This document shows, one piece after another, positions 40,310-60,000 of a DNA stretch of 64,000 nucleotides. Origin of the DNA: an uncultured Roseobacter sp. GTDB lineage: Bacteria > Pseudomonadota > Alphaproteobacteria > Rhodobacterales > Rhodobacteraceae. The translations under genes and the position numbers were made by a program. The notes under the pieces are model-generated. The model was not told the DNA's origin, searched no databases, and worked only from the letters and a program-made list of their open reading frames with translations. Within the stretch, counting starts at the first letter, position 1. Each line of letters opens with the position of its first letter. The stretch lies in NCBI RefSeq assembly GCF_947493125.1, contig NZ_CANLQB010000002.1, forward strand, positions 372,001 to 436,000, given 5' to 3'.

Positions 40310-40378
40310 TGAGACAGCCAGCGTCGTACCATGCGCGCTTATATGCTTTTCAAGGTCTATCCCGGTGCCTCCGACGGG

Positions 40379-41233: not shown

Positions 41234-41406
41234 GGCTGCGATACTACATCTGTGCCTGACAACAAAGGTTTACTTGTCTGGCTCGGGTTTGCTGACGTGC
41301 AGTGGAAACCATGCCTTTGACCGGCCGCGCTTGCTGCTCTAAGCGGTCATGAGAGACGGCAGAGTGATCCCATCTTTGTACGAGGGCGGCTGACAAGGAG
41401 GCACAT

Positions 41407-42084: not shown

Positions 42085-42189
42085 GTCGTCCCACCTCAGG
42101 CCTCTTTGTGATTTGCGCGTGACCCTTTGATCGGTTTCTGGAAGAGATGGAAACGAGGAAGGTGCGAAGCCCCAAGAAGGTAGTGGCGT

Positions 42190-43257: not shown

Positions 43258-43794
43258 GTGGCCAAAGTTTTTGCCCCCAACCGTGGTTCCGTTCAGAAAT
43301 CGCCCAAACGCCCGTCTGAAGTAACGCGCAACGCGCAGGGGGGCGGCTTGGGCGCATTGCAGCGGAAGGCGGATAGCAGTGTGGTGGTGCAGCGACTGAC
43401 CCGGTGGTCAGGCGGAGGGGTTGCCCAGCGTCAGCCTCATGAAGAGGAAACTGCTGGCGGCTTGCCCGCGGCGCTCAAAGGCGGGGTCGAGAGCCTCTCC
43501 GGCGTCGATATGAGCGACGTAAAAGTGCAGTATAATTCCAGCAAGCCCGCCCAGATCCAGGCGCATGCCTATGCGCAGGGTACAGACATTCATCTGGCCG
43601 CCGGTCAGGAGAAACATCTGCCGCATGAAGCCTGGCATGTGGCCCAGCAAAAACAGGGCCGGGTACAGGCAACCACGCAGATGAGGGGTGTGAGCATCAA
43701 TGACGATGCGGCGCTAGAAAGAGAGGCCGATACGATGGGGGCCAAGGCTGCATCGGCCCCCGCGCAGATGGTTGAGGACACCAAGGACGGCTGA
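43258..43794 (+). CDS. Small DUF4157-domain protein with HExxH motif, eCIS-associated
   Basis: The 178-residue protein has a basic, disordered N-terminus (1-65) and a DUF4157 domain at about 66-160: LPAALKGGVESLSGVDMSDV, then the zinc motif H123-E-A-W-H127 inside LPHEAWHVAQQ, and a downstream EREAD (154-158) that may supply the third ligand. DUF4157 is strongly associated with eCIS loci, where it usually heads large toxins; here it stands alone with no toxin domain. It starts at GTG with AAGGAG seven bases upstream. Its stop overlaps the next ATG (TGATG). Confidence 0.9.
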   Translation: MAKVFAPNRGSVQKSPKRPSEVTRNAQGGGLGALQRKADSSVVVQRLTRWSGGGVAQRQPHEEETAGGLPAALKGGVESLSGVDMSDVKVQYNSSKPAQIQAHAYAQGTDIHLAAGQEKHLPHEAWHVAQQKQGRVQATTQMRGVSINDDAALEREADTMGAKAASAPAQMVEDTKDG

Positions 43795-45080
43795 TGCGGG
43801 ACCACGTGATCCGACTGCTGGCCTTAACGGGTCTGCTGCTGATGGGGCTGCTTGCGCCGGTGCTGGCCCAGGCCTGCGAAGCACCCGAGGGCGCGCACGA
43901 TCTTGTGGTGGCGATCCGCTCAGCGGAGCCGTTCACCTATGCCGGTCCCGACGGATTGCCGCGCGGGTTTGCGGTGGACCTGTGGCATTCGATATCCACC
44001 GACATCGACAAGACCACCGCCTTTGTGAGTTGTGACAGCATCGATGCGCAGGAGCAGGCGCTGCGCCGTGGGGATGTGGATGTGGTGATCTCGCCGCTGA
44101 CGATCACGGCGGAGCGGATGCTGACCTATGATTTCAGCCAGCAGTATCTGTCGTCGGGTCTGACCCTGGCGGTGGCGCAGACCGGGGCGATTGATTTCGA
44201 GGTGGCCATCGAGACGATCACCGACACCGTGTTTCAGCCCACCGTCGCGCGGGCGATCATCCTGTTTTTGCTGCTGAACCTGATCACGGCCTACCTGTTG
44301 CGTGCGCTCATGCGGAGCCTGCCGGATGATCTCGATGCAGAGGGCGAGGTGGGCCGGGGGCGGGCATTCATGGCCTATATGCTGGAGGCCGTTGCACGCA
44401 CCTCGGGGCTGAAAGGGGTTGGCAACGGGTTTCGGACGCTGCTGGGCAAGGTCTTCGAGATGATCATGGCGGTGGTGGGCACGGCGCTGTCGGCGATGAT
44501 TCTGGGTGTGATCACTTCGGCCTTTGTGGGGGCCATTGGAGAGAACCCGCCGGTCTCCTCCCAGGCGCTGCCCGGGCTGAGCATCGCGGTGCTGCGCTGT
44601 TCGACGGCACAGGAATTCCTGCGGCAGGAGGTGACGGAGGCTGCGTTTCGCGCCGATGAAGGCAGCGAGGCACAAGAGTTGTTGAAGGCGCGGGCGGCAT
44701 GGCTCGATTGCGCAGCGCATCAGGATGACAATATCCGCAAGGTGGACGCGATGCCCGAGGATGGCTTGCCCGGGGGGGTGGTACTGACGCCCACATGGAA
44801 AGAGGCGGTCGAGCAGCTCTATCAGGGCAAGGTCGAGGCGGTTTTGGGCGATTGGATTGCACTGTCGTATATGGCGCGGCGGGCGCCTTATGATGGCCAG
44901 ATCAGCGTACAAAACAGTGTCTATCGCAATGAACCTTATGGCTGGGCGATCACGCGGGCAGGCGGCAATGAGGATCTGCGCCGGGCCATCGACAGCGCAC
45001 TGATCGTGCGGATGCGGGATACTGATTGGCGCAAGCGGATTGAGAACACGCTGGGCTCGGGGGCGATTGCGCCGAACTGA
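43794..45080 (+). CDS. Prokaryotic ionotropic glutamate receptor-like channel
   Basis: The 428-residue protein has a signal peptide (1-26) and a split periplasmic amino-acid-binding domain: lobe one (about 30-140, with ISPLTITAERMLTYDFSQQY, where R108 matches the carboxylate-binding arginine of this fold) and lobe two (about 250-420). Between them lie a first membrane helix (150-172), a pore-like segment with G-V-G-N-G (208-212) and a second helix (217-247). This is the S1-M1-P-M2-S2 layout of GluR0. The filter-like VGNG differs from the TVGYG of potassium channels, so selectivity is uncertain. It is coupled to DUF4157 and to the following methyltransferase. Confidence 0.75.
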   Translation: MRDHVIRLLALTGLLLMGLLAPVLAQACEAPEGAHDLVVAIRSAEPFTYAGPDGLPRGFAVDLWHSISTDIDKTTAFVSCDSIDAQEQALRRGDVDVVISPLTITAERMLTYDFSQQYLSSGLTLAVAQTGAIDFEVAIETITDTVFQPTVARAIILFLLLNLITAYLLRALMRSLPDDLDAEGEVGRGRAFMAYMLEAVARTSGLKGVGNGFRTLLGKVFEMIMAVVGTALSAMILGVITSAFVGAIGENPPVSSQALPGLSIAVLRCSTAQEFLRQEVTEAAFRADEGSEAQELLKARAAWLDCAAHQDDNIRKVDAMPEDGLPGGVVLTPTWKEAVEQLYQGKVEAVLGDWIALSYMARRAPYDGQISVQNSVYRNEPYGWAITRAGGNEDLRRAIDSALIVRMRDTDWRKRIENTLGSGAIAPN

Positions 45081-45868
45081 TGGGACGTCACCAGGATATC
45101 CGCCCGGCACCGCCGGAGAACCCGACGGAGGGGTCGTATCGGCTCTATTTCACGTCAGGGCATTACGACCGGCGCTATCCCAACCCGAACCTGAGCACCT
45201 GGCGGCGGATCGTCGAGCTGCTGCCGCCGGGCGGGCATGTGATCGATTATGGCTGCGGCAACGGGCGGTATCTGCTGCGTTTGCGGGAGCGGGCCGGGGT
45301 GGCGGCGGGGTTCGACATCAACGCGGCTGCGCTGGAGATGCTGGCCGAGCGCGCGGTGGAAATGGGGTGGACAGATCTGAAGGTGCTGGGCCCGGATGCG
45401 GATGCGCTGGCCGCCCATGTGCGCTCGCGCGGGCCGGCGGATTTGATGCTGTGTCTCTTCGGCGTGCTGGCGCATATCGAGGCGCGCGAGGAACGGCTGG
45501 CCGTGCTGCGGCAGATGCGGCGTTTGCTGAAGAAAGACACCGGGCGGTTGTTGATTTCCGTGCCGAACCGGCGGCGCCGGTTCCGGCGCGAGCAGCGGCA
45601 GGCGGGGCCGGGCGCCAAGGGGCTGATCCGGTATACGCGCGTCATGCAGGGGGCGGAGGTGACCTTGCCCTACCAGCTTTATGACCCGAACCGGCTGCAG
45701 GAAGAGCTGGCCGAGGCGGGGTTCTGGATCCAGGGCATCCGTGCGGAAAGCGTGCTGCCCGAGAGTGTGCTGACCACCTATCCGACGATGCGCTGGCTCG
45801 ACAGCCTGCTGACGCGGGTCTGCCCGGCAGCCTTGGGGTACGGTCTGATCGCTGTGGCGGTGCCATGA
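45080..45868 (+). CDS. Class I SAM-dependent methyltransferase
   Basis: The 262-residue protein has SAM motif I DYGCGNG (56-62), AAGFDINAAALEMLAERAVE after it, and the acidic motif LMLCLFGVLAHIEAREER near 130. The shape is of the Methyltransf_11/25 type used for small molecules or lipids. The substrate is unknown. The gene lies inside an operon of membrane receptor and permease genes, starting in a TGATG overlap and ending in an ATGA overlap, so it is produced with them. Confidence 0.85.
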   Translation: MGRHQDIRPAPPENPTEGSYRLYFTSGHYDRRYPNPNLSTWRRIVELLPPGGHVIDYGCGNGRYLLRLRERAGVAAGFDINAAALEMLAERAVEMGWTDLKVLGPDADALAAHVRSRGPADLMLCLFGVLAHIEAREERLAVLRQMRRLLKKDTGRLLISVPNRRRRFRREQRQAGPGAKGLIRYTRVMQGAEVTLPYQLYDPNRLQEELAEAGFWIQGIRAESVLPESVLTTYPTMRWLDSLLTRVCPAALGYGLIAVAVP

Positions 45869-47478
45869 CATGGGCGGTGCGGGCGCTTTGCGTTGTTCTG
45901 GGCCTGCTGGGGCAGGGGGCTGGCGCTGAAGTCCAACTGCCTGAGGCGCCGGACGGGCGACTGGCGCATATCCTGCAACGCGGCACGCTGATCGTGGGCG
46001 TCAAGACGGATTATCCGCCCTGGGGCATGCTGGATGCCGAGGGGGCGATCATCGGGCTGGAGCCGGACCTCGCGCAGGTGCTGGCGGACCGCATGGGCGT
46101 CGGGCTGCAGCTGGTCTCGGTCAGCGCGTCCAACCGGTTGGGGCGTCTGGAGCAGGGTGTGGTGGACGTGGTGATCGCCACGATGGGCGACACCGAGACG
46201 CGGCGGGCGCAATCAGGCTTGTTAGAGCCGAGTTATTACTCGAGCGGGGTCGTCGCCTATGGGCCAGAGGACCGCCCGCACCAGTCCTGGGACGACCTGC
46301 GCGGGCAGCCGGTTTGTATGACGCAGGGCGCCTATTACAACCGGACGCTGGAGGAAACCTATGGTGTGGAGGGGCGCTATTTCCCGGCGAACCGCGAGGC
46401 GAAGATGGCGCTGTCCTTCGGGCGCTGCGTGGCCTGGGCCTTTGACGACACGGCGCTGGTACAGCGGGTTCTGACCAACCCCGAGGACGGCTATAGCGTC
46501 ATGGAAGAGCGCATCCTGGTGACGCCTTGGGCCATCGCCGTGGCACGGGCCGAGCGGGAGGCGACGCTGGGGCGCTTTGTCTCGGCGATGATCGGCGAGT
46601 GGCACGCGACCGGCGCGCTGCTGGCGCTGGAGCGGAAGTGGCAGATCGGCGAGAGCGCTTATCTGCAGGCGCTGAACCGGGCCTGGGCGCAGCCGGGCGC
46701 CTGCGCGGAGGGGCCGGAGGGGTTGCCGCCTGTGTGCCAGGGCGCGCCGCCGTTTCCCGCCGCGGAAGACCCGGCCACGCCCCCGGCGTGGATCACGGGT
46801 CTGCGCGACACCACGGGCGTTGATCTGCTGGTGCTGCACGAGGCCTACACGCGGGGGCGGCTGACCCAAGGTCTGGGCCTCACGCTGGCGCTGTCGGCCA
46901 CGGCGATCCTCGGCGCGCTGACGGTGGGGCTGCTGCTGGGCACGATGGATGCGGCGCTGCGCGGACGCGGCTGGTGGGGGCGGGCGCTTCTGGTCCCGCA
47001 AAAGCTGCTGGTGACGGTGGCGCGGATGACGCCGCCCATTCTGCAGATGTATATCGTCTTCTTCGGGCTTGGGGGCGTGCTGGCGCAATCGGCGATGATC
47101 ACGCCCGGCGCCTTTGCCACGGCGGCGCTAATCCTGTCGCTCTATGCAGGCTCTACCAACGCGGTTTTGATCGCTCACGCGCTGGCGCTGGAGCGCGCGG
47201 CGCATCCCGAGGCGGGCGTCTGGGCCTTGCTGCCAAGGGCGTTTCAGCGCGCTTATGACGGGCTGGTCGCGGCCTGCGTCAACATCGTGAAAGCGGCGGG
47301 GATGGCGAGTGCCATCGCGCTGGCCGAGCTGGTGTCGACCGTGAACCTGATCGTCTCGGAAGGGGGCGATGTAGCCACCTTCATGAACGGGCTGCTGGTC
47401 TTCTACTTCCTGCTGATGCTGGGGGTGCTCTGGCTTTTCCGACGGTTGCGGCGCTGGATCTTGGGGGCGGGGGCATGA
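45865..47478 (+). CDS. Amino-acid-type solute-binding protein fused to an ABC permease
   Basis: The 537-residue protein has a signal segment (1-21), a family 3 solute-binding domain (about 35-280: LIVGVKTDYPPWGML, then EPDLAQVLADRMGVGLQLVS and VVDVVIATMGDTETRRAQSG) and a HisM-type permease domain (about 345-535: LTLALSATAILGALTVGLLL, and an EAA-like loop near LPRAFQRAYDGLVAACVNIV). Fusions of these two are known in polar amino acid uptake, but they need an ATPase, and none is encoded in this operon. Overlaps of four bases on both sides show coupling. Confidence 0.82.
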   Translation: MTWAVRALCVVLGLLGQGAGAEVQLPEAPDGRLAHILQRGTLIVGVKTDYPPWGMLDAEGAIIGLEPDLAQVLADRMGVGLQLVSVSASNRLGRLEQGVVDVVIATMGDTETRRAQSGLLEPSYYSSGVVAYGPEDRPHQSWDDLRGQPVCMTQGAYYNRTLEETYGVEGRYFPANREAKMALSFGRCVAWAFDDTALVQRVLTNPEDGYSVMEERILVTPWAIAVARAEREATLGRFVSAMIGEWHATGALLALERKWQIGESAYLQALNRAWAQPGACAEGPEGLPPVCQGAPPFPAAEDPATPPAWITGLRDTTGVDLLVLHEAYTRGRLTQGLGLTLALSATAILGALTVGLLLGTMDAALRGRGWWGRALLVPQKLLVTVARMTPPILQMYIVFFGLGGVLAQSAMITPGAFATAALILSLYAGSTNAVLIAHALALERAAHPEAGVWALLPRAFQRAYDGLVAACVNIVKAAGMASAIALAELVSTVNLIVSEGGDVATFMNGLLVFYFLLMLGVLWLFRRLRRWILGAGA

Positions 47479-48077
47479 TCGAGCTTCTGCTGAGCCACAC
47501 CAATTACCTGGCGCGCGGGTTTGCCACCAACTTGCTGATCTCGGTGCTGTCCATGAGCTTCGGCACGGTGCTGGGCGGGCTACTGGGCTGGCTGCGTGCG
47601 CGCCGAGTGACCGCGCTGGGGCCCGCGGCGCATATGGCCACGAATGTCTGCCGCAACGTGCCCAGTTTTGTGCTGCTCTTCTACATGGCGTCGATGATCC
47701 CCAGCGAGGTCACGATCAGCGGCACAATCATGGCGGTGCCGCTCTGGATCAAGGCGACACTGGCGCTGACCTTTCCCGTCATCGGCTTCACCTCGGACCA
47801 GTCGCGCGGCTATTTCGAGCAGCGCCGCGCGGGCCTTTCGGGTGCTGCGGAAACCTTTGTGGTAGCCTGGGTGCAATACTTCTTAATCATTATCATGGCT
47901 TCTGCGACGGCCTCGGTGATCGGCGCAGACGAGATCGTGGGGCGCGCAAATATCGTTATTTCTCAAAACGAAAGCCCGCAGTTCCTGCTCATCACCTACC
48001 TCTATGTATCGCTGTGGTTCCTGATGGCCGGACTGCTCATGACCAGTGCCGTTAAGCTTCTGACCCGCCCCCGTTAA
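47475..48077 (+). CDS. ABC transporter permease subunit, polar amino acid type
   Basis: The 200-residue protein has about five transmembrane helices (LARGFATNLLISVLSMSFGT at the start, then LWFLMAGLLMTSAVKLL at the end) and a HisM-like NVCRNVPSFVLLFYMASMIP segment, with an EAA-like region near GAAETFVVAWVQ. It would pair with the permease half of the preceding fusion. It ends the five-gene operon. The missing ATPase is notable: the pair may borrow one or serve as a receptor rather than a transporter. Confidence 0.8.
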   Translation: MIELLLSHTNYLARGFATNLLISVLSMSFGTVLGGLLGWLRARRVTALGPAAHMATNVCRNVPSFVLLFYMASMIPSEVTISGTIMAVPLWIKATLALTFPVIGFTSDQSRGYFEQRRAGLSGAAETFVVAWVQYFLIIIMASATASVIGADEIVGRANIVISQNESPQFLLITYLYVSLWFLMAGLLMTSAVKLLTRPR

Positions 48078-48127
48078 CTTTACCTTAGGGAAAGGACGCT
48101 TGCTTTTTAGCGACTCATCGGTACGGT

Positions 48128-48152
48128 AAATTTCAAACTGAGGTTGAAATTT
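48128..48152. promoter_or_regulatory. Perfect 9-base inverted repeat upstream of the eCIS structural operon
   Basis: AAATTTCAA (48128-48136) and TTGAAATTT (48144-48152) are perfect inverted copies around ACTGAGG. Symmetric AT-rich arms with a 7-base centre suit a dimeric repressor or activator. It lies 50 bases from the DUF4255 start, so it is a candidate operator for the injection system. Confidence 0.55.
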
Positions 48153-48185
48153 CCGGGCGGACACACGTGTGTTTGCCCGCCCGGA
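48152..48185. promoter_or_regulatory. GC-rich inverted repeat adjoining the operator-like site
   Basis: TCCGGGCGG (48152-48160) pairs with CCGCCCGGA (48177-48185), and between them ACACAC pairs with GTGTGT (48161-48172). In RNA it would be a long hairpin ending 17 bases before the DUF4255 ATG. It may terminate the upstream permease operon or control the translation of the first structural gene. There is no T tract. Confidence 0.5.
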
Positions 48186-48201
48186 CCATGGAATGCTGCC
48201 G

Positions 48202-48774: not shown

Positions 48775-49511
48775 TGGCCTACTCGGAGATCCTGCGACTG
48801 AGCCTCAGACATGCGTATTTCGGTGCCGATGTGCCCCCGGTGATGGTGCAACCCGGCGATGCGCGCGCTTTCGAGCGCGCCGGGTGCCTGCTGCGCCAGC
48901 GCGGCGCGGTGAGCCATGTGCTGGTCGATGACGATGAGACGCGGCCCGAGGCGGTCGCGCTGACCCTGGTGGCGGGCACGCAGGACATGTTTGCCGTGAC
49001 CAAGGGGGCGGCTTGGGGCGCGCAGCGGCAGATCACCGCCCCGCTCGATCAGGACGAGATTGCCTTTGCCGCCGGTGAAACCCCCGAGACAGAGCCGTTT
49101 TCGGGCCGGTTCGTGCCCGAGATGGCAACGCTCGAGATTGCGCTGCCCGAGGCCGGGCGCCGTGATCTGGTGCTAAGCTTCGAGGCGGTGGCCAGTCATT
49201 GGGCCTATCACCTGATCGGCGTGCCCGAGGCCGAGGGCCTGACCGTGATCGATACGGCGGGCGTGGTCGCTTTCGAGGATCTGGGCACCCAGGATTTGCC
49301 CAACGGCCAGGCGGCGCGGGTGATCCGCTCGGCCCAGACCGTGGCGGCGCGGGCCCGGCCCGTGGAGCGCTTTGCGTTGCAGAAAGCGGGGGCCTTCGGG
49401 CCGGAGACATTGGTGTCTGTGCTGCCTGCGGGCGCGCCTCCGTTCAAACCCATCCCTGATGCGGGCGCGGAAGGGCGCCTGCAATCCGACATTTTCGTCA
49501 CGCTTTGGTAA
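48774..49511 (+). CDS. eCIS-cluster protein of unknown function
   Basis: The 245-residue protein has no signal peptide. It begins AYSEILRLSLRHAYFGADVP and is predominantly beta, with repeated short strands (FSGRFVPEMATLEIALPEAG, then FVTLW at the end). No family was recognised. It sits between the DUF4255 cap gene and the sheath gene, coupled to the former by TGATG, and so is probably a structural or assembly protein of the particle. Confidence 0.7.
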   Translation: MAYSEILRLSLRHAYFGADVPPVMVQPGDARAFERAGCLLRQRGAVSHVLVDDDETRPEAVALTLVAGTQDMFAVTKGAAWGAQRQITAPLDQDEIAFAAGETPETEPFSGRFVPEMATLEIALPEAGRRDLVLSFEAVASHWAYHLIGVPEAEGLTVIDTAGVVAFEDLGTQDLPNGQAARVIRSAQTVAARARPVERFALQKAGAFGPETLVSVLPAGAPPFKPIPDAGAEGRLQSDIFVTLW

Positions 49512-49524
49512 AGGAGAGCCCAGA

Positions 49525-51699
49525 ATGGCTATGAAGACCCCCGGTGTATACATCGTTGAGAAGAGCGCGTTTCCCAATTCGGTGGTCCAGGTGGCCACCG
49601 CCGTGCCGGCCTTCATCGGCTATACAGAGATGGCGATGAACGGGAATGTTTCGCTCAAGGGCACGCCTTGGCGCATCACCTCGATGTCGGAGTTCCACAG
49701 CTATTTCGGCGGTGCGCCGGAGCCGATGTTCGAGATCAAGCCGTTTGAGGCCTTCGATGGGGTCTCGCCCTTGTCGGCGGATGGCGCGGACAAGAAGCCG
49801 ACGATGCCGCGGGCGGTCTTTACCACCCAAGGGCCGCGCGGGGCGGAAGAGTTCGAGTTGGTGCAGACCAACCCGGCCTATGCGCTTTACGGGGCCATGC
49901 GGCTTTTCTTCCAGAACGGCGGCGGCGCCTGCTATGTGACTTCGATTGGCTCTTATGCCGATGACATCGACGCGGATGCGATGATGGCGGCGATCACCCG
50001 GCTGAAGAAGGAGCCGGAGCCGACGATGGTGGTGATCCCCGAGACGACGCGGCTGGTGCGGCAGAACGCGGTCAAGGTGCAGCAGGCGATGCTGAAGCAC
50101 TGCGGCAATGACATGAAGAACCGCTTTGCGATCCTCGATATCTCGGGCGGCTACCTGCCGCAGTCAGATCCCTTAGGCAATCCGGTGGCGACCTTCCGCA
50201 ACGATGTGGGGATCAACAATCTCGATTTCGGCGCGGCCTATTACCCGTGGCTCGACAGTTCGATCTATCAGTCGCGCGACTTCACGTTCGAGAACATCGA
50301 GCCGGGCAGCCGCAAGACGCTGATCGGGCTGATGCGCCGGTCGGTCGGCAAGTCGGACGAGCTGCGCACCGAGATAGAGCGCATTTCGGCCCCTTCGATC
50401 ATGGGTGATTTTACCCTGTCGGTGCCCAAGGGCGGCACGATTGCGGTGACGACCACCGACATTACCGCGACGGATGACGAGAGTGATGCCGAGGGGCTGA
50501 CCTATAGCGTCGAAGGCAGCGAAGACAGCATGGCCGGCAAGCTGGTCAAGACCGGGTCCACAGACGCGCTCAACAGCTTTACGCAAGCCCAGCTAGAGGC
50601 GGGTGAGGTGAGCTTTATCCACGATCCGTCCAAGGGCAATATGGGCCAGTTCGATCTGGTGGTGAGCGACGAGAACGAGATCGCCACCGATGCGCGCACC
50701 ATCGCCGTGGAAGTTGTGGGCGGTCTGCTGGATGCGCCCGCGGTGGCCGCCGGAACATCGGTCGTCGTCGATGTGCCCGCCGATCATCCCGATGGCGACA
50801 AGGCGACCGTGAAGCTGGTCGAGGCCGATGACGATGCGGGCAAGAACAAGGCCGTCGAAGGCGTGGGCACCTGGAAGGTGGGATCGGGCGGTAAGGTGAC
50901 CTTTGCGCCCGATCCGGCCTTCATCGGGCCTGAAGCCTCGGTGAGTTACACCATCGAAGTCGGCGGGGCGACACAGCCGCCTCAGCAGATCCGCATCCTG
51001 ATGAACGACAGCGAGGCGGGCGTGGAAGAGGGCAGCCCCTCGGCCGCGACCATCGACAAGACGCTGCGTGCGGTGGTGCCGCTCTACACGGAGGTGATGA
51101 ACGAGATCACCGGGTATATGAATTCGATGCCGCCGTCCGCGGCGATGGCCGGGCTCTATACGATGGTCGACAACAGCCGCGGGGTCTGGAAGGCGCCTGC
51201 GAATGTCTCGGTCAACTCGGTGGTGGCTCCGATGGTCAACATCAGCCACGAGGAGCAGGAGAACCTCAACGTCTCGACCACGGGCAAATCGATCAACGCG
51301 ATCCGGCCGTTTGTGGGCGAGGGCACGCTGGTCTGGGGTGCGCGCACGTTGGACGGCAACTCGCTCGATTGGCGTTACATCAACGTGCGCCGGACCATGA
51401 TCATGATCGAGGAATCGATCCGGCTCGCCTCGAAAGCTTATGTGTTCGAGCCCAACACGGCGCAGACCTGGGTCACCATGCGCTCGATGATCGAGAACTT
51501 CCTGACCTCGATCTGGAAGCAAGGCGGCTTGGCGGGCGCTGTGCCCACCGACGCGTTCTCCGTGCATGTGGGCCTCGGCGAGACCATGACACCGGTGGAT
51601 ATTCTGGAAGGCATTCTGCGCATCACCGTGCTTGTGGCGGTCACGCGGCCTGCGGAATTCATCGAGATCACCTTCCAGCAGCAAATGCAGAAATCGTAA
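49525..51699 (+). CDS. eCIS contractile sheath protein with adhesin-like insertion
   Basis: The 724-residue protein starts like phage/eCIS sheath proteins (KTPGVYIVEKSAFPNSVVQV) and ends with the sheath handshake region (FVGEGTLVWGARTLDG, then WRYINVRRTMIMIEESIRLA and EFIEITFQQQMQK). Between residues 295 and 500 lies an extra segment with two Ig-like modules: 298-398 resembles a CSPG/cadherin-like repeat (FTQAQLEAGEVSFIHDPSKG) and 400-494 resembles a CshA-type fibril repeat (GTWKVGSGGKVTFAPDPAFI). AAGGAG lies eight bases before the ATG. The insertion should face outwards on the particle. Confidence 0.93.
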   Translation: MAMKTPGVYIVEKSAFPNSVVQVATAVPAFIGYTEMAMNGNVSLKGTPWRITSMSEFHSYFGGAPEPMFEIKPFEAFDGVSPLSADGADKKPTMPRAVFTTQGPRGAEEFELVQTNPAYALYGAMRLFFQNGGGACYVTSIGSYADDIDADAMMAAITRLKKEPEPTMVVIPETTRLVRQNAVKVQQAMLKHCGNDMKNRFAILDISGGYLPQSDPLGNPVATFRNDVGINNLDFGAAYYPWLDSSIYQSRDFTFENIEPGSRKTLIGLMRRSVGKSDELRTEIERISAPSIMGDFTLSVPKGGTIAVTTTDITATDDESDAEGLTYSVEGSEDSMAGKLVKTGSTDALNSFTQAQLEAGEVSFIHDPSKGNMGQFDLVVSDENEIATDARTIAVEVVGGLLDAPAVAAGTSVVVDVPADHPDGDKATVKLVEADDDAGKNKAVEGVGTWKVGSGGKVTFAPDPAFIGPEASVSYTIEVGGATQPPQQIRILMNDSEAGVEEGSPSAATIDKTLRAVVPLYTEVMNEITGYMNSMPPSAAMAGLYTMVDNSRGVWKAPANVSVNSVVAPMVNISHEEQENLNVSTTGKSINAIRPFVGEGTLVWGARTLDGNSLDWRYINVRRTMIMIEESIRLASKAYVFEPNTAQTWVTMRSMIENFLTSIWKQGGLAGAVPTDAFSVHVGLGETMTPVDILEGILRITVLVAVTRPAEFIEITFQQQMQKS

Positions 51700-51719: not shown

Positions 51720-52178
51720 ATGGCAGACGACGGTTCCGCACAAACGCAGGCCATCTGGCCGCTTCCCAAGTTCCATTTTCAGGTGAAATGGGACGACACC
51801 GAGCTGGCCTTTCAGGAGGTCTCGGGCCTCGATATCGAGAGCGAGCCGATCGAGTACCGGGCGGGCAACAACCCGGTCTTCTCGACCATCAAGATGCCGG
51901 GCATGATCAAGACCAGCAACATCACCATGAAGAAGGGCGTCTTCGTGAAGGACAATGCCATCTGGGACTGGTTCAACGAGATCAAGATGAACACGATCAC
52001 CCGCAAGGCGCTGACGATTTCGCTGCTCGATGAGGGGCAGAACCCCACAATGGTCTGGAAGGTGCAGAACGCCTTCCCGGTCAAAGTGACGGGGACCGAC
52101 CTGAAAGCCGATGGCAACGAGGTCGCGGTCGAGACCATCGAGATTGCGCATGAAGGGTTCGTGATCGAGAACGCGTAA
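51720..52178 (+). CDS. eCIS inner tube protein (gp19-like), first copy
   Basis: The 152-residue protein has the T4 gp19-like tube fold pattern: FHFQVKWDDTELAFQEVSGL, then IKTSNITMKKGVFVKDNAIW and DWFNEIKMNT. The C-terminus is VAVETIEIAHEGFVIEN. It forms the inner tube, stacked inside the sheath, through which cargo is delivered. Ribosome site GAGGA precedes the ATG. Confidence 0.93.
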   Translation: MADDGSAQTQAIWPLPKFHFQVKWDDTELAFQEVSGLDIESEPIEYRAGNNPVFSTIKMPGMIKTSNITMKKGVFVKDNAIWDWFNEIKMNTITRKALTISLLDEGQNPTMVWKVQNAFPVKVTGTDLKADGNEVAVETIEIAHEGFVIENA

Positions 52179-52184
52179 CATCGC

Positions 52185-52640
52185 ATGGCTGATTTTGATC
52201 TGCCCGTCGCCTTCCATTTCTCGGTGAGCTTCACCGGGGCGGGGCCTTCCATCTCGGACGCTGCCTTTCAGGAGGTGTCCGGGCTGGAGTCCTCCATTGA
52301 GGTGGAACCACTTGTGGAGGGCGGTGAGAACCGGTTCATTCATCAGCTGCCCAAGCCCGCCAAGCGCAATAACATCGTGCTGAAACGCGGGCTGACGGAG
52401 AATTCCAGCGGTTTGGTCAAATGGTGCAAGGCGACGCTCGAGGGCGACTTCGCAAAGAAGATCGAGCCGAAGAACCTGGTGATTTCGCTGCTCGATGAGG
52501 AGGCCAACCCGGTGGCGAGCTGGTCGGTGGGCAATGCCTATCCGGTCAAGTGGTCGGTCGGGGGATTTGACGCAATGAAAAATGAGCTGGCCATCGAGAC
52601 CATCGAACTGGCCGCCACAACACTCAAGAGGGACACATAA
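52185..52640 (+). CDS. eCIS inner tube protein (gp19-like), second copy
   Basis: The 151-residue protein is a paralogue of the preceding gene (FHFSVSFTGAGPSISDAAFQ, then EVSGLESSIEVEPLVEGGEN and a C-terminal LAIETIELAATTLKR). eCIS usually carry two or three tube paralogues, one building the tube and another adapting it to the baseplate. It lies seven bases after the first copy, and its stop overlaps the next start. Confidence 0.92.
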   Translation: MADFDLPVAFHFSVSFTGAGPSISDAAFQEVSGLESSIEVEPLVEGGENRFIHQLPKPAKRNNIVLKRGLTENSSGLVKWCKATLEGDFAKKIEPKNLVISLLDEEANPVASWSVGNAYPVKWSVGGFDAMKNELAIETIELAATTLKRDT

Positions 52641-52816: not shown

Positions 52817-53509
52817 ATGGCCAAGCTCAAGATCATCCGCTGCAGGATTCAGAACGGTCAGATCAAGGAGCAGAAGGGGTCGTCGAACACCTTTGAAGCC
52901 ACGATCAACCCCCAGGATTATTCGCACACCTTCGGGCTGAAATACTCGGGCACCGGCGAGGGCAGCAGCAGCGCGAGTGCCGTGGGAAAATCGGCGCCGG
53001 TGGCGAAATTCGCCAGTTCTGAGGCGGAGAAGCTCAGCTTTTCCATCGTGCTCGACGGCACCGGTGTGGTGGCGGATGCGGCCAATACAACCGTCGCCAA
53101 GCAGGTCGATAAGCTGCGCGGCATCGCCTATGACTATGATGGCGACGAGCATGAGCCAACGCCGGTCAAGGTGGTTTGGGGCAAGGGCCTCAAGGCGTTT
53201 TACGGGCGGCTGACCTCTCTGAGCGTGGATTACAATCTCTTCCATCCCGATGGCACCGCGCTGCGGGCAAAGATCAAGCTGGATTTCGTCGAGGCCAAAA
53301 CGGACGCCGAGGAGGCCCGGGAGGCCAAGCGCAAGTCCCCCGATATGACCCATGTGATCCGTGTGCGCGAGGGCGATACGCTGCCGCTGCTCTGTCAGCG
53401 GGTCTACAAGGATGTGAGCAAATACCTGGAGATTGCGCGGATCAACGAGCTCGACACATTCCGCGACCTGGAGCCCAACACACTGTTGCGCTTCCCGCCG
53501 ATGCGATGA
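52817..53509 (+). CDS. eCIS baseplate hub protein with LysM domain (Pvc7-like)
   Basis: The 230-residue protein has an N-terminal domain with beta strands (about 1-165, starting AKLKIIRCRIQNGQIKEQKG) and a C-terminal LysM domain (about 177-228: VIRVREGDTLPLLCQRVYKD, then YLEIARINELDTFRDLEPN). T4 gp53 and PVC Pvc7 share this make-up; the protein connects tube and spike at the baseplate. It follows the DUF5908-like gene by three bases. Confidence 0.88.
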   Translation: MAKLKIIRCRIQNGQIKEQKGSSNTFEATINPQDYSHTFGLKYSGTGEGSSSASAVGKSAPVAKFASSEAEKLSFSIVLDGTGVVADAANTTVAKQVDKLRGIAYDYDGDEHEPTPVKVVWGKGLKAFYGRLTSLSVDYNLFHPDGTALRAKIKLDFVEAKTDAEEAREAKRKSPDMTHVIRVREGDTLPLLCQRVYKDVSKYLEIARINELDTFRDLEPNTLLRFPPMR

Positions 53510-53518
53510 GGATTGGCG

Positions 53519-55282
53519 ATGGCGGATAGTCCTCTCGACAACGCGGATGGGCCGATTTCGGTCACCATCAAGGTCGCGGGCAGCGCCATTGATGACGCGC
53601 TGCAAATCCTGCGCGTGCAGGTCGACAGCGCGGTGGGGCAGATCCCCGAGGCGCAGGTTGTGCTGCAAGCGGGCTCGATTGCGGAGAACGAGTTTCCCGA
53701 GGCCGATGGCAATGATTTCAAGATCGGATCGGAGATCTCTATCGCCGCGGCCTATGGCAGCGGCTCGGATCAGGATCTCTTCAAGGGGGTGATCGTCTCC
53801 AAGCGGATGCGGATCACGCGGGGCGCGCCCCGGCTGGAACTGGGCTGCATCGACAAGGCGGCGAAGCTGACCTACACGCGCAAATCTGCGCTCTATGAGG
53901 CGAAGAAAGACAGCGACGTGATGAGCCAGATCATCTCGGACGCTGGGCTGAGCGCGGATGTGAGTTCCACCACCGATACGGAGCGGGACATCCTGCGCTA
54001 CGCTTGCAGCGATTGGGGCTATCTGCGCAGCCTTTCCGACCGCGCGGGGCATGTGATCACGATCACCGGTGGCAAGGTCACCTCCAAGCCGCCGGCTACA
54101 TCGGAGGCGGCGGTGCTGGTCGTGACGCTGGGCGTCGATATCATCAGCTTCGATGCGCGGGTCGATGCGGAGATGAGCCTCAAGGGTGCGAAAGCATCTG
54201 CTTGGGATTCCAGCACACAGGAGGTTGCGGAGGGCACAGGGAAAACTCCAGCGGCGCCGGAGTGGGGCAATTACACGCCCTCCGCGCTCGCTGAAGTCTT
54301 GGGCGATCGGGAGTTTCACGTGAGCACCGCGCGCGAAGTGCCCTCGGCTGATCTGACGATCGCGACGAATGCGCGGACGCTGCGGACGGCACTGGCCTCG
54401 ATCCAGGGCGAGTGCACCTTCCAGGGCTCCGGCAAGGCGGTGCCTGGGGTGGTGATCGAGCTAGCGGGGTTGGGCGACCGGTTCAGCGGCGACGCCTATG
54501 TGAGCGGGGTGCGGCAACTCGTCGAGGAAGGGGCCTGGACCACCGAGGTGGCGCTGGGGCTGCCCGACAGCTGGAACGTGGATTCCGGGACCTTCGCCAG
54601 CGAGAGTGCGGCGGGCCTCGCGGCGCCGATCCACGGGTTGCAGGTGGGCACGGTGCTGCAGATCAATGAGGACCCCGACAGCAAGGCGCGCTTCAAGATC
54701 AGCCTGCCGATGGTGGCGGACCCGGCGCCGCAGGTCTGGGCGCGCTATGCCCAGCCCTATGCGACGAAGGAGGCAGGCTTTGAGTTCTACCCGGAAGTCG
54801 GAGACGAGGTGCTTGTGGGGTTCCTCAACGCCGATCCGAATGCGCCGGTGGTGCTGGGCTCGGTGCACAACGGCAAGGCCGCGCGGCCCGATGAGCCGAC
54901 AGCGGATAACTTCATCAAGCAGATCGTGACCAACCAGAAGATGAAGCTGATCTTTGATGACGAGAAGAAGATCATCACCATCGAAACCCCAGGTGGCCAT
55001 TCGGTCGTGATGGACGACGATGCAACCTCGATCACCCTGAAGGATTCCACCGGCAACAAGATCGAGATGGCCAGCGGCGGGATCAGCATAAACAGTCCCG
55101 GCGATATCACCCTGTCCGCCGATGGGGCGATCAGCATCGCGGCGACGACCGATGCCACCCTGACCGGCATGAATGTGACCGCCGAGGCCGACACGGCCTT
55201 TACCGGCAAGGGCGGGGCGACCGCCGAAGTCAGCGCCAGCGGTCAGATGACCGTCAAGGGCGGCATCGTGATGATCAACTAG
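53519..55282 (+). CDS. eCIS spike protein, VgrG/gp5-gp27-like (Pvc8)
   Basis: The 587-residue protein begins with a gp27-like part (about 1-330), goes on to an OB-fold/gp5-like part (LQINEDPDSKARFKISLPMV near 385, then EVGDEVLVGFLNADPNAPVV) and ends in a beta-helix-like repeat region (ISINSPGDITLSADGAISIA). It forms the trimeric spike. The ATG at 53519 follows GAGG; a TTG two codons before is the alternative. It is followed by the PAAR tip gene. VgrG is also found in type VI secretion, but the surrounding genes are eCIS. Confidence 0.92.
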   Translation: MADSPLDNADGPISVTIKVAGSAIDDALQILRVQVDSAVGQIPEAQVVLQAGSIAENEFPEADGNDFKIGSEISIAAAYGSGSDQDLFKGVIVSKRMRITRGAPRLELGCIDKAAKLTYTRKSALYEAKKDSDVMSQIISDAGLSADVSSTTDTERDILRYACSDWGYLRSLSDRAGHVITITGGKVTSKPPATSEAAVLVVTLGVDIISFDARVDAEMSLKGAKASAWDSSTQEVAEGTGKTPAAPEWGNYTPSALAEVLGDREFHVSTAREVPSADLTIATNARTLRTALASIQGECTFQGSGKAVPGVVIELAGLGDRFSGDAYVSGVRQLVEEGAWTTEVALGLPDSWNVDSGTFASESAAGLAAPIHGLQVGTVLQINEDPDSKARFKISLPMVADPAPQVWARYAQPYATKEAGFEFYPEVGDEVLVGFLNADPNAPVVLGSVHNGKAARPDEPTADNFIKQIVTNQKMKLIFDDEKKIITIETPGGHSVVMDDDATSITLKDSTGNKIEMASGGISINSPGDITLSADGAISIAATTDATLTGMNVTAEADTAFTGKGGATAEVSASGQMTVKGGIVMIN

Positions 55283-55291
55283 GAGGAACAG

Positions 55292-55582
55292 ATGCCACCA
55301 GCCGCACGACTGACCGATATGCAGACCTGTCCGATGGTGACCGGCGTGGTGCCGCATGTAGGCGGGCCAGTCATCGGGCCGGGCGAGGCGACCGTTCTGA
55401 TCGTGAGCCTGCCCGCCGCTGTTGTCGGCGACAATTGCACTTGCGTGGGACCGCCCGCGACCATCGTGAAGGGCTCAGCCACGGTGATGATCGGCGGCAA
55501 GCCCGCGGCGCGCATGGGCGACACGACTTCGCACGGCGGCAGCATCGTCGCGGGCGCTCCAACCGTGATCATCGGAGGGTAA
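55292..55582 (+). CDS. PAAR-domain spike tip protein
   Basis: The 96-residue protein is a single PAAR domain: the N-terminal MPPAARLTDMQTC, then several zinc-ligand-bearing turns (CTCVGPPATIVKGSATVMIG) and GKPAARMGDTTSHGGSIVAG, the PAAR name motif. It caps the VgrG-like spike with a sharp tip. AGGAGG lies before the ATG. It carries no toxin extension. Confidence 0.95.
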   Translation: MPPAARLTDMQTCPMVTGVVPHVGGPVIGPGEATVLIVSLPAAVVGDNCTCVGPPATIVKGSATVMIGGKPAARMGDTTSHGGSIVAGAPTVIIGG

Positions 55583-55583
55583 G

Positions 55584-56021
55584 ATGGCAGACGCAGACCC
55601 TTCCTTCCTCGGGCGCGGTTGGGCTTTCCCACCCGCGTTTGACAGCGGCACCGGGCAGGCGAAGCTGGTGCAGGCCGAGGAGGACATCGTCGAGAGCGTC
55701 CGCATCCTGATGGAGACGCGGCCCGGCGAGCGCGTGATGCACCCGACCTATGGCTGTCGCCTGCATGATCTGGTGTTCGAGCCGATGGATGGCGAGACTG
55801 AAGCCGAGATCGAGGTGGCGATCCGCCGCGCGATCCTGTTCTTCGAGCCGCGCATCAAGATTGGCGAGATTGCGGTGGATATCCAGAACGCGCTGGAAGG
55901 GCACCTTGGTGTCACGCTGAGCTATACGGTGATCGAGACCAACGAGCGGCACAACATGGTCTTTCCCTTCTACATCACCGAGGGCACCCTGGTGTCGCAA
56001 AAGCCGGTGCCCGCAGCGTGA
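55584..56021 (+). CDS. eCIS baseplate wedge protein, gp25-like (Pvc9)
   Basis: The 145-residue protein matches the GPW/gp25 family: GWAFPPAFDSGTGQAKLVQA, then ILMETRPGERVMHPTYGCRL and the acidic VAIRRAILFFEPRIKIGEIA. It nucleates sheath polymerisation at the baseplate. It overlaps the following lipoprotein gene by four bases (GTGA). Confidence 0.94.
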   Translation: MADADPSFLGRGWAFPPAFDSGTGQAKLVQAEEDIVESVRILMETRPGERVMHPTYGCRLHDLVFEPMDGETEAEIEVAIRRAILFFEPRIKIGEIAVDIQNALEGHLGVTLSYTVIETNERHNMVFPFYITEGTLVSQKPVPAA

Positions 56022-56929
56022 GGCTGATGGGCGCATATCTGGCGCTTGGGCTGCTTGCGGGCTGTGGCGCGGTGGAGGCGGTGCAGACCAGCAAGACCTT
56101 CGAACTGCTGGGCCTCGCGCCGGATGATCCCTGCGTGGTCACGCGCCGCGAGGGCAAGCGGCTCGCGGGCTCCTACCTGCGGCAGGCCGCGGCCTCCGAG
56201 GGGAGCGAGGTGTTCTTTGTCACCGGCAAAAGCTCGCGCCAGGGGTTGCCCCGCAATCTGGAATTCAACGATCTGACCGTGCGCCGGATTCGTCCGACGG
56301 GCGAGGGCCCGCTGGAAGGGGCGCGGCGGTCGGTGGCGACGCCCATTCAGGGCATTGGCGTCTCGGGCGCCTTGCCCGCCGCCTATACGCTCGCCTATCG
56401 CGCGGAGCGGATCGACTATGAAGGCCCGGTGGTCGTAGGGCCCAGCCCGACGGGATTTGAAATCCCCACCACGGGGCAGGTGGTCTATGAAGGCGATGTG
56501 CAGCTGACGCTCACCACGGCGACGGCCGAGGGGACCACCGAGACCGTGCAGCTCGCCAAGTTCATCACCGAGATTGGCTATGGCTCGCAGCAGGCGCGGT
56601 TCTCCATCGACACCAGCGGCGCCGGTCTGCCCTTTGACGGGGTGCGATGGACGCGGCTGGGCATCTGCGGCACGCGGGTAACAAGCTCGGGCCAGGGGCA
56701 GGTGCTGTTCGTCGCGGCGGACGGGTCGCGCGCGGTGCCGTTTCAGGCGGGCCGGGACGCCACACCGATTCGCGCTTTACTAGAATCATCACAGTTTGCG
56801 AGCGAGGATCGTCCGGGGCCACCGGACAGCTATGGGGGAACTTTTGTGATTGCGGGCGACATCGGCACCCTGACCGGCGTCTTCATTGCAACACAATCAA
56901 AAAGTGAGGTGAATACCGACCCGTTATGA
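56018..56929 (+). CDS. Predicted lipoprotein in the eCIS operon
   Basis: The 303-residue protein has a lipoprotein signal (LALGLLAGC, C16 lipidated), a middle with beta strands (about 60-200) and a C-terminal domain ending in YGGTFVIAGDIGTLTGVFIA. No family was recognised. The GTG overlaps the gp25 stop; the ATG at 56027 is an alternative that keeps the lipobox. A lipoprotein inside an eCIS structural operon is unusual, because the particle is assembled in the cytosol. It may tether particles to the membrane, which is inference. Confidence 0.72.
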   Translation: MRLMGAYLALGLLAGCGAVEAVQTSKTFELLGLAPDDPCVVTRREGKRLAGSYLRQAAASEGSEVFFVTGKSSRQGLPRNLEFNDLTVRRIRPTGEGPLEGARRSVATPIQGIGVSGALPAAYTLAYRAERIDYEGPVVVGPSPTGFEIPTTGQVVYEGDVQLTLTTATAEGTTETVQLAKFITEIGYGSQQARFSIDTSGAGLPFDGVRWTRLGICGTRVTSSGQGQVLFVAADGSRAVPFQAGRDATPIRALLESSQFASEDRPGPPDSYGGTFVIAGDIGTLTGVFIATQSKSEVNTDPL

Positions 56930-57035
56930 GGGCGCACGGCGCGGTTTTGCTTGCGTCTGTCACATGGGGTCATAGAGTTGCAGGGGCTCTGCTTTTCTCA
57001 ACTGTTTATGATTGCTCACGTTTTCGCGGTCCGGG

Positions 57036-60000
57036 GTGGCCGTTTCTTTTGAATTGCCAAAGGTGTCGATAGCTGCCGTGCATCGGAAATGGGACGATAT
57101 TCTTGTAACACCAGGGTCGCTGTGCAGTGACCGCCTGCCGCCTGCGCTGGCTGAGGACCGGCGCGACGTACGGCCCGAAACGCTGGCCGAGGCCTTCTGC
57201 AAGGCGGGGCGCCGGTTGCACGCTAAAGATGTGCCGCAAGGTGTGCTCGATAAACGCTCTGGGCCCTGGGTGCGGCTCTTCCGGGCGGAGCCGGCCTATA
57301 CCTATTCGGAGCTGATTGCCTTTAACGTGCACCATGCGGCCTTTGCCTTTGACCGGGCAATTGAGACTGATCCGGAGGAGGCAGGCCAGCTCATCTGGGA
57401 GCTGGCGCGGCAGCTCAAGGACTGGATCGCGCGATTGCCGGTGCGCCAGCCGTCGCAGTTTTCCAAGCAGGTGCAGCAGCTCAATGCCGAGGCCGATCTG
57501 GAGGCGCGGCTGGAGACATTGGCGGGCGTGGCGCCCACCGGGGTGATGCGTGTCATTCGCAGCACCACGCCAATCATCAGCCGCCGCCGGGGCGATGCGT
57601 TGTCGCAGGCGCGGGCGCTGTTGACGGCGTACCGTTCGACCCATGCGCTGTTGCGCAATGCGGTGGAGACGCTGCGGCCCCATGCTTTGGCGGCATTTGA
57701 GGCGCGCATCAAGTCGGGGGATATGGATCCGTCGCTGGGGTTGCTGATCGCGGAGTTGCGGGCGGCCTTGCTGGTCGACGGGGCGATCAACGATGTGGTC
57801 GAGCGGGTCGTGCAGTTCTACTATCAGGACATCATCGGACAGACCCCGGCGCGCGCCTCACCCGAGCGGGTGCTCTTGCATCTGGGCGCAGGGCGGCAGG
57901 CGTTGGTGGTGCCGGATAGTGCGCGGCTGACGGCGCGCAAGGCGGACAACACGGTGCAGAGTTTCGCGACCGAAGCGCCGGTGCATGTGAGCTCATCGCA
58001 GCTCAAATCGGTGGCGACGCTGACCTATGAGACCGACCCGCAGATTTCCTTCAACGCGGAGCTGGGCGGCATCACCGGGCTGCAGGTGACCCATTGGCAG
58101 CCGGGGGCCGAGGTGCCCCTTGACCAGCCGGGTATCGAGGCCGCGGGGCAGGGGGTCTTTGGCGTTGGCACGATGGGGCCGGCGCGCATGGGGCTCGACA
58201 TCAGCTCGCCCATGCTGGCGCTGGCGCAGGGGCAGCGGCGCATCACCATGTCGCTGAACCTTCAACGCGCCTCTGGGCTGCCCGCGCTACCGGAACCAGT
58301 TGAGACCGGCGCGGTCTCTGAGGATGGGTTGGCCGGGGCAGAGACGCTCGTCACACTGCAGTCGGACCCCGCGCTGGTGCAGGCCTTTCACCCCGACCGG
58401 CCGCAGCGGGGCCTGTTGCGCATCGCCAGGGAGGCCGAGCAGATGGCGGCCGAGGCTGGCCAGACCATCTGTCTCAGCGGGCTCTACCATTGTCTCGCGA
58501 CGCAGGTTGAGACGGCGGATCAGCTGCGCCTGCTGCTGGGTCGGGTTGTGACGCTCTGCCTGATTGAGCGGGTGCCGTTTCCGAGCGGGGCGTTTCGGAG
58601 CCTGCTGAACACACTGATCGGCACGCATCACAAGGCGCTCTCCGAAGGGGTGCGGCAGGTGGCGCGGGACGGCGGTGCGCCAGGCTCGATGATCCTCGAT
58701 CTCTTTGCCGAGGGGCAGGAGACGCTGACGCCGGAGGATCTGTTCCAGAAGCTTTTGGGCGATGCTTTCGAGGCGACGCTCAGCACCAAGGATGGCCCGA
58801 TCCGCGCCGCGGTCACCCAGGTGCTGCCGTCGATGCAGACCGGCGTGGCGGGCATGACGCTGGTGCTGGAGCTGACCTCGGGCATGCCGGAGATTGCGGC
58901 GGGCGAGGGCATGCCCGCGCCCACGCTTTTTTTGCGCAACGCGGCCAACCCGCGGATCTGCCCGGTGTCGTTCTTTGAAAGCTATACGCTCGAATCCATC
59001 GGCATCGAGGTCACGGTTGCCGGCATGCAAAAACTGCGGGCCTGGTCGGATGACGGCCCGCTTGCGGTGGACCAGTCCTTCCTACCCTTCGGCGCCCGCC
59101 CGCAGGATGGTGCCACCTTCATCGTGGCCAGTCCGGAGATGGCGCAGAAGCCGGTGACCGAGATCGGGGTGGAGCTGGTCTGGGCCGACCGGCCCGATCC
59201 TCTGGGTGGGTTCGAGGCCCATTACAAGGATTATGCGGGCAAACCGGACACGCCACAGCCAACCCTCTCGGTGAGCTATCTCAGTGGGGACGGCTGGAAG
59301 CCGGTGGCCGAACCCGAATTGCCGCTGTTCGAGACGGAGCCGGTCACGGGCGAGCTGATGGCCGAGCGCAGCTTTGGCGGGCGCGTCAAGGGCCATTCGG
59401 TGCGGGCTACCGGCCGGGTGCGGCCCGAGATGTTTGCGGCGCGCCAGAGCCTGCCCGCAGGTGCCGTGCGCCTGTCGCTGATGGGTACGGCGGGTGGATT
59501 TCATGCAGACCAGTACCCGCTGGCGCTGGTCGAGGCGATGCGGCCTCGGCTCATGCCATTTGGCGAGCGTAAGATCCCGCCGCCGCCGTTCGTGCCCAAG
59601 ATCGATGTGTTTTCGCTGTACTACACGGCGCAGGCGACGATCGAGGTGAACGCGCCGGATGCGGCCAACCCTGGCGAGCGCATCATCCAAATCAACCCCT
59701 TCGGACAGGTCGAGGTTTTCCCCAAGAGGATGCTGCGCGAGATCGGGCTCTTTCCGCCCCGGCTGGGCTATGGGCATCTCTTCCTACATCTGACGGGTGA
59801 TCAGGCCACGGGGCCTGTGCCGCTGCTCTTCAATATGGCCGAGAGCGGGCATCTGCGGCTTGTGCCGCGGCCCAACCCGGTGAAGTGGTACTACCTCGCC
59901 GCCCATGGCTGGGCCGAGCTGCCGGATACGGCGATCTCCTCGGATACCACCTCGGGGCTGATGCGGTCGGGGCTGGTGATGGTCGATCTGCCGGAGGACG

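Follow-up and report, generated by a model that had tools for sequence, protein, structure and literature searches.

An importer-derived permease pair without its ATPase-docking loop and a glutamate-receptor-like partner beside an extracellular contractile injection system: a candidate amino-acid receptor cassette

The stretch of DNA analysed here (64,000 nucleotides, hereafter the window; positions 372,001 to 436,000 of contig NZ_CANLQB010000002.1 of an uncultured Roseobacter sp.) carries a run of five genes at 43258-48077, all on the forward strand, ahead of the structural operon of an extracellular contractile injection system (eCIS). Neighbouring genes overlap by 1, 1, 4 and 4 bases (TGATG, TGATG, ATGA and ATGA at the successive joints), and both coordinates and junction letters bear out the five open reading frames (ORFs) with overlaps of 1-4 bases reported in a first-pass annotation of this DNA. 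The genes are:

43258..43794, forward strand: DUF4157/eCIS_core protein, 178 aa, with an HEAWH motif (PF13699, E = 9.9e−11)
43794..45080, forward strand: g2, ionotropic glutamate receptor (iGluR)-like protein (SBP_bac_3 split across residues 38-414 by Pfam)
45080..45868, forward strand: g3, class I S-adenosylmethionine-dependent methyltransferase (Methyltransf_23, E = 3e−13)
45865..47478, forward strand: g4, SBP_bac_3 domain (PF00497, E = 5.4e−20) fused to a permease domain of the polar amino acid transport (PAAT) type
47475..48077, forward strand: g5, second PAAT-type permease (NCBIfam match below cut-off and AlphaFold model)

The binding domain of g4 is that of a family-3 solute-binding protein (SBP), as in PAAT systems, and its residues R113 and D194 are invariant (22/22). 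For g5 there was no Pfam match at E 0.01. The NCBIfam model HEQRo_perm_3TM matches both g4 (E = 6.4e−6) and g5 (E = 6e−9), in both cases under the curated cut-off, and the AlphaFold model of g5 (predicted local distance difference test score, pLDDT, 89.3) has the type I importer permease fold, with an amino-acid importer as its best PDB match (4yms, template modelling (TM) score 0.76). What is missing is the EAA coupling loop: the corresponding segment has 14 residues in g4 and 9 in g5 versus 25 in ordinary permeases, and in the g5 model helix 90-118 runs straight to helix 124-149. As a yardstick we used two ordinary operons (SBP, permease, permease, ATPase) from a tblastn search of plasmids with g4, which returned 39 records, all with less than 80% of the query covered. 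Relative to these two, the loop is shorter by about 11 residues in g4 and about 20 in g5.

The loop, the ATPase and the neighbouring genes were surveyed at 51 loci chosen by likeness to g4. Neighbourhoods were taken for matches spanning both the binding and the permease part (G441 of 3 genomes, 15/36, and 3 further of 9), the other g4 matches being the binding part alone, or G000 and G011, or already included. The length of the EAA segment is bimodal: it has 25 residues in both permeases at 8 loci and is shortened at the other 41, to 8-16 residues in g4 (40/41 measured, the frameshifted L012 being dropped) and 2-9 in g5 (39/41 measured, nothing having aligned in L077 and L081). Within 6 kb, a PAAT-type ATPase scoring above 200 bits is present at nine of ten EAA-bearing loci, both plasmids counted (242 bits in L078, 238 in L079 and 401-538 in the other seven), and the 41 EAA-less loci, 29 of them with full 6-kb flanks (the window included) and 12 with cut flanks, all lack one. 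Four of the nine (L047, L048, L082 and L092) served to build the ATPase model and match it by construction. In the g5 tree, which is unrooted, a 100/100 branch separates nine EAA-bearing rows from the other rows; L082, the tenth, with 21% of the columns, is misplaced with the long-branched L029, and L073 and L077 were left out. Taken together, sequence comparison and predicted structure indicate that g4 and g5 derive from an amino-acid (PAAT) ATP-binding cassette (ABC) importer that lost its ATPase-docking loop. The earlier label of permease is unproven, given that the docking loop is gone.

The signalling partner encoded beside the EAA-less pair is not constant. At the 41 loci it is an iGluR-like protein in 22 cases, a Cache-pentameric channel in two, a HAMP-SpoIIE phosphatase in three (L075, L076, L081) and a cyclase in five (L039, L086-L089); no partner was recognised at four (L026, L090, L091 and L077, where the contig ends in g5), and at five the contig is too short (L007, L008, L011, L017, L018). 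Sixteen of the 22 iGluR-partnered loci lie beside eCIS genes and six do not. Both Cache channels (L029:10594-12732 and L073:5896-7557) stand beside the same methyltransferase and permease pair, g3 being present at these and at some SpoIIE loci as well. The SpoIIE model was built from L075, L076, L078, L079 and L081 and the cyclase model from L086 and L039, so that their own matches hold by construction; Pfam supports L086, L039 and the five SpoIIE genes independently, and L087-L089 are assigned by the model only. Pfam recognised only the Cache part of the Cache-channel protein and left the C-terminal half without a match; by profile comparison this half matches the acetylcholine receptor gamma subunit (E = 0.0016) and, more weakly (E = 0.05-0.11), a GLIC chimera and bacterial Neur_chan_LBD channels. 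At L078 and L079 the EAA loop and the ATPase are kept and SpoIIE and the methyltransferase are already present, which suggests that the signalling partner may predate the loss of the importer's engine (the tree is unrooted). The iGluR-like protein, the L086 cyclase and the Cache channel each have a periplasmic sensor domain; in the SpoIIE proteins, HAMP is preceded by a long stretch to which no domain is assigned. The dCache domain from Marinomonas, compared by eye with what we take to be the dCache amino-acid motif, did not fit cleanly. We also observed that L086-L089 place the EAA-less pair beside a cyclase in four genomes of the class, Pfam finding dCache and cyclase domains in L086.

In the window the partner is g2, which reads, in order, N-terminal signal-like helix, SBP lobe 1, M1, P-helix, filter loop, M2 and SBP lobe 2. 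The AlphaFold model (pLDDT 87.9) places lobe 1 at residues 37-128, M1 at 149-175, the P-helix at 188-204, M2 at 216-247 and lobe 2 from 263, and both model and fold search support the clamshell split by M1-P-M2 that characterizes iGluRs. The best 50 of 1674 PDB matches to the model are all AMPA or NMDA receptors, aligned over 407-448 columns with TM scores of 0.40-0.50, which points to a shared architecture with a different domain arrangement. Among the best sequence matches is the ligand-binding domain 2pyy. The ligand motifs R108, S270-T271 and D353, presumably equivalent to R485, S654-T655 and E705 of GluA2, are invariant in 62/62 aligned sequences (62 of the 89 in hand), and all three are present in 21/21 cassette g2 proteins (the split L012 excluded). 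The K+-type filter TVGYGD of bacterial members is lacking: g2 has RTSGLKGVGN where an iGluR relative has TTVGYGD, the register of the replacement being ambiguous. The motif is missing in 87 of 88 g2 relatives, which have RTxGL[KR]GVGD-like sequences of varying closeness instead, and the sole keeper of TTVGYGD is also the one with PF00060. At eCIS-free loci the filter varies further, and in L027 it is lost. Thus, of the glutamate-receptor-like, possibly pore-forming channel of the first-pass annotation, the iGluR architecture stands; the K+ filter is not conserved and a pore is unproven. Amino-acid sensing, also proposed there, is the best reading of the evidence.

To survey the distribution of the gene set, a single genome per species, 84,980 species in all, was scanned with two short peptide patterns based on the g5 alignment, a procedure that misses divergent relatives. 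The scan gave 114 matching stretches, which reduced to 28 loci with g5 relatives. Wherever the contig is long enough, g3 and g4 precede g5 in constant order; g2 is missing in L026 and L029 and follows g5 in L027. Recurrence at 28 loci with the order kept suggests that the set is more than a chance arrangement. With eCIS genes called by phmmer with window proteins in the 10-kb flanks, 18 of the 28 loci (L002-L016, L019-L021) lie beside such genes (pvc16 alone in L016, where the contig ends), in line with a conserved gene order tied to eCIS in Roseobacteraceae and Paracoccaceae; two contigs (L017, L018) are too short to tell. At most loci the cassette stands before pvc16, and it abuts other eCIS genes in L019, through a 4-base overlap of the gp25 stop with the g2 start, and in L021, through one of the same length between the g5 stop and the h303 start. 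Two loci show damage, with broken frames in L012 (Rhodovulum marinum) and a stop in g4 in L026 (Sediminimonas), from decay or sequencing error. Just upstream of the Desulfobacterales cassette, L027:6305-7135 encodes a peptidoglycan-binding protein with a weak Pesticin-like domain.

The co-occurrence with eCIS was assessed in a family set of 394 genomes, calling the cassette by a g5 profile score above 200 bits. Six genomes pass, the next best score being 99.7 bits. Tube genes occur in 42 of the 394, and 11 have them in tandem (two PF06841 starts less than 600 bases apart). The cassette is found in 4/11 tandem-tube genomes versus 2/383 others (one-sided Fisher p = 4.9e−6), an enrichment of the kind that the first-pass annotation had proposed to look for. 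The two others are G139, with a g4-g5 pair beside a cyclase, and G368, in which g4 has an internal stop. When the eCIS lineage of the window is defined by sheath similarity it comprises five of the 11 tandem genomes, four of which have the cassette, versus 0/6 in other lineages (p = 0.015). In G144 the cassette lies 22 kb from the tube and has baseplate-like genes directly behind g5.

The DUF4157 gene behaves differently. It is borne out as an eCIS gene by its domain match and its HExxH motif; it was found at 13 of the 28 loci and at none of the eight with eCIS-free flanks, and it was undetected at L020 and L021. It lies on the opposite strand in L009, L013 and L016 and precedes pvc16 in L019 and L034. 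A single five-gene unit was therefore rejected: the strand and place of DUF4157 vary, and the other genes also occur without eCIS. The locus is two things, the DUF4157 gene of the eCIS and a separate g2-g5 cassette. The first-pass interpretation thus keeps the conserved order, the eCIS tie and amino-acid sensing and loses its single module.

Downstream of g5 the window contains the following:

48078..48192, forward strand: gap bearing two inverted repeats that may be an operator or attenuator (folding versus shuffles)
48169 (GTG) or in-frame ATG 48193 / 48202, to 48774, forward strand: pvc16, first eCIS structural gene (PF14065, Pvc16_N, E = 1.4e−29)
49372..51699, forward strand: eCIS sheath, coordinates of the listed ORF, whose actual start is probably close to 49500 (PF17482, PF16184, PF19076 and PF17963 above cut-off, PF04984 below)
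51720..52640, forward strand: two tandem tube genes (PF06841 twice)
52817..61840, forward strand: rest of the eCIS operon in the window (CIS_tube, spike base, PAAR, gp25, h303, h1330, h338)
56018-56929, forward strand: h303, lipoprotein-like (N-terminus judged by eye), behind gp25
57012-61004, forward strand: h1330, with a homologue in L021
60824-61840, forward strand: h338, which we take to be fibre-like

The predicted folding of the gap is better than that of 200/200 shuffles (z = −2.87), and a TTCAA...TTGAA repeat was seen by eye in five of 16 gaps listed (the window, L002, L004, L006 and L007). A consensus scan of 48078-48192 found neither a terminator-like nor a sigma-70-like site. The operator-like gap of the first-pass annotation is accordingly retained for its repeats and folding, without a consensus regulatory site, and the repeats are a possible operator or attenuator. 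The operon is that of an eCIS, with sheath, tube, spike, gp25, terminator, tape measure and AAA genes all present, the tape measure and AAA genes coming next, just beyond the window, and with a DUF4157 gene bearing HExxH. The sheath ORF has a Cadherin_3/CshA/Big_9-like, adhesin-like insert, a possible surface decoration. No Pfam match was found for h1330 itself; the homologue in L021 has a Baseplate_J match (E = 0.0011) under the cut-off. Beyond the window, L030:11102-14401 encodes a protein of 1099 aa whose N-terminus is signal-like and which has hydrophobic segments in its C-terminal part. This protein and h303 both match in 8 of 14 genomes searched (the five of the lineage defined by sheath and the genomes of L012, L018 and L019) and in 0/6 with other eCIS; the h303 match is weak in G160 and partial in G001. 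Judging from these sequences, the particle may act at the cell envelope, and given the envelope-like genes its release from the cell is, in this lineage, a possibility only. Upstream of the eCIS region, window positions 36534-42891 carry glycosyltransferase and FkbM methyltransferase genes.

From these observations we infer a receptor function for the cassette, a signal path through its partner and control over the eCIS. We consider it fairly likely that g2-g5 encode an amino-acid receptor derived from an ABC importer, which one eCIS lineage has taken up to time the production, release or firing of its particles. According to this scheme, g2-g5 would form a membrane receptor complex for an alpha-amino acid, in which g4, with its periplasmic binding domain and permease half, and g5, the other half, make up the transmembrane pair. 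Since the EAA loop is lost and no ATPase is encoded alongside, ligand closure could not drive ordinary import, and the cassette probably senses instead of importing, as far as sequence can tell. Closure of the g4 binding domain would most likely reshape the pair, and the neighbouring partner would read the change: here g2, whose clamshell is itself of the amino-acid-binding kind and whose two-helix pore domain has a non-canonical filter, and in relatives the Cache-pentameric channel, the HAMP-SpoIIE phosphatase or the cyclase. As a guess, g3 may adapt the receptor or make the ligand. The eCIS lineage of Roseobacteraceae and Paracoccaceae that adopted the cassette would then make, release or fire its particles under amino-acid control. 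A more far-reaching version can be put forward only tentatively: engine-less ABC importers might be a general amino-acid co-receptor for whichever signalling protein is at hand, and in one eCIS lineage gate an injection machine via an ion channel, an iGluR relative deciding when the weapon is built or fired.

Several points weigh against the proposal. The flanks of eight of the 28 loci (L022-L029) have no eCIS gene, and no PF06841 match was found in the genomes of L017, L022-L026 and L028 (14 genomes checked, several of them draft or metagenome assemblies); cassette genomes without any tube match indicate that the cassette can do without an eCIS. In the genome of L027 an eCIS lies on another contig. 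The finding that the first-pass annotation had named as contrary to it, namely the genes recurring without eCIS nearby, was thus made in part, with g2-g5 in Gammaproteobacteria and elsewhere in eCIS-free flanks, and exclusivity of the cassette to eCIS was rejected on the basis of such loci and genomes. With any tube gene as the criterion, the association is 5/42 versus 1/352 (p = 6.1e−5); one of these five is G139, whose tube gene and permease are on separate contigs. G160, of the same eCIS lineage (83% complete), has no detected cassette. Distances of g4 and sheath are only moderately correlated over 14 loci (rho = 0.48, with 71 of 5000 permutations as high and kinship ignored). Weaker ABC-ATPase matches (53-142 bits) occur within 6 kb of four of the 41 EAA-less loci (L015, L022, L075, L077), the one in L022 adjoining an FtsX/MacB gene. 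Finally, the g2 filter may not conduct, and the physical link between g2, g4 and g5 is itself presumed.

The same observations bear on other explanations. One is a docking or firing complex, in which the cassette would hold the particle at the inner membrane or set it off there, with sensing secondary. The 4-base overlaps with eCIS genes in L019 and L021 would suit it, as would the envelope-like h303 and 1099-aa protein of the lineage (8/14 genomes, 0/6 with other eCIS), and CisA has been proposed in such a role for the Streptomyces CIS (PMC12237407). We think it rather unlikely all the same: g2-g5 occur in genomes without a tube match (L022-L025, L028), the g4-g5 pair beside phosphatases and cyclases indicates that docking is not its general role, and G160, in which no cassette was found, has matches to the envelope-like parts as well. 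Less probable still is a leak, by which g2 and the permease pair would pass ions or amino acids passively, shift the membrane potential and aid lysis and particle release; the full M1-P-M2 pore domain predicted for g2, and its replacement by another ligand-gated channel family in L029 and L073, are set against a canonical filter that is not conserved and against relatives whose partners, SpoIIE and cyclase, are no channels. An ordinary uptake operon hitch-hiking beside the eCIS, with an ATPase borrowed from elsewhere in the genome, would agree with the importer fold predicted for g5 and with the ligand residues kept in both binding domains (g2 and g4), and we rejected it as very improbable because neither half has the EAA loop at any measurable EAA-less locus, with no ATPase alongside, whereas ordinary ATPase-bearing operons keep the loop.

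The receptor reading can be placed among known systems. Like PAAT importers such as 4yms, the cassette has a family-3 binding protein, the permease fold and the order SBP-permease-permease; it differs from them in the deletion of the EAA loop from both permeases, the lack of an ATPase gene nearby, the SBP-permease fusion and the added methyltransferase and signalling partner. As in bacterial iGluRs of the GluR0 type, g2 has a split clamshell, an M1-P-M2 insert and amino-acid-binding residues; unlike them, it has an RTxGL[KR]GVGD-like sequence for TVGYGD, and at the loci read its gene accompanies those of a permease-like pair and a methyltransferase. The eCIS shares Pvc16, sheath, tubes, CIS_tube, spike, PAAR, gp25, tape measure, AAA and DUF4157 genes with described systems and, relative to those in the part of Geller et al. 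2021 (PMC8213781) considered, adds the cassette, the lipoprotein-like gene and the 1099-aa membrane-protein gene. A membrane protein encoded with a CIS has a parallel in CisA, a bitopic membrane protein required for firing in Streptomyces, and that report (PMC12237407) shows that some CIS may depend on a partner in the membrane. For bacterial Cys-loop channels encoded in operons with type II periplasmic binding protein (PBP-II) and Cache genes, chemoreception was proposed (Tasneem et al. 2004, PMC549065); they resemble the present loci in Cache fusions, PBP-II operon genes and the proposed chemoreceptor role. The permease-like pair and methyltransferase set ours apart, both terms occurring 0 times in that text. 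Neither 'transporter' nor 'permease' appears in the main text of PMC8213781, PMC11297309, PMC12923769 or PMC12961389. We found no description of this gene set, which agrees with the first-pass annotation, to which no described eCIS with the set was known; the search covered open-licence papers only, so that the absence is weak.

Transporters turned receptors are known in other families. What is new here is the engine-less ABC importer as receptor, together with an iGluR-like partner and an eCIS. To our knowledge, how producer cells decide to make or fire eCIS particles is largely open, and the cassette, if our reading is true, would be a candidate signal input for an eCIS and would give a glutamate-receptor-like protein a role in a bacterial process that is already known. 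With a simple reporter, the co-receptor idea could be put to a direct test in the relatives coupled to a cyclase or phosphatase. If it holds, the fold of ABC importers would be reusable as a pure receptor with a swappable output.

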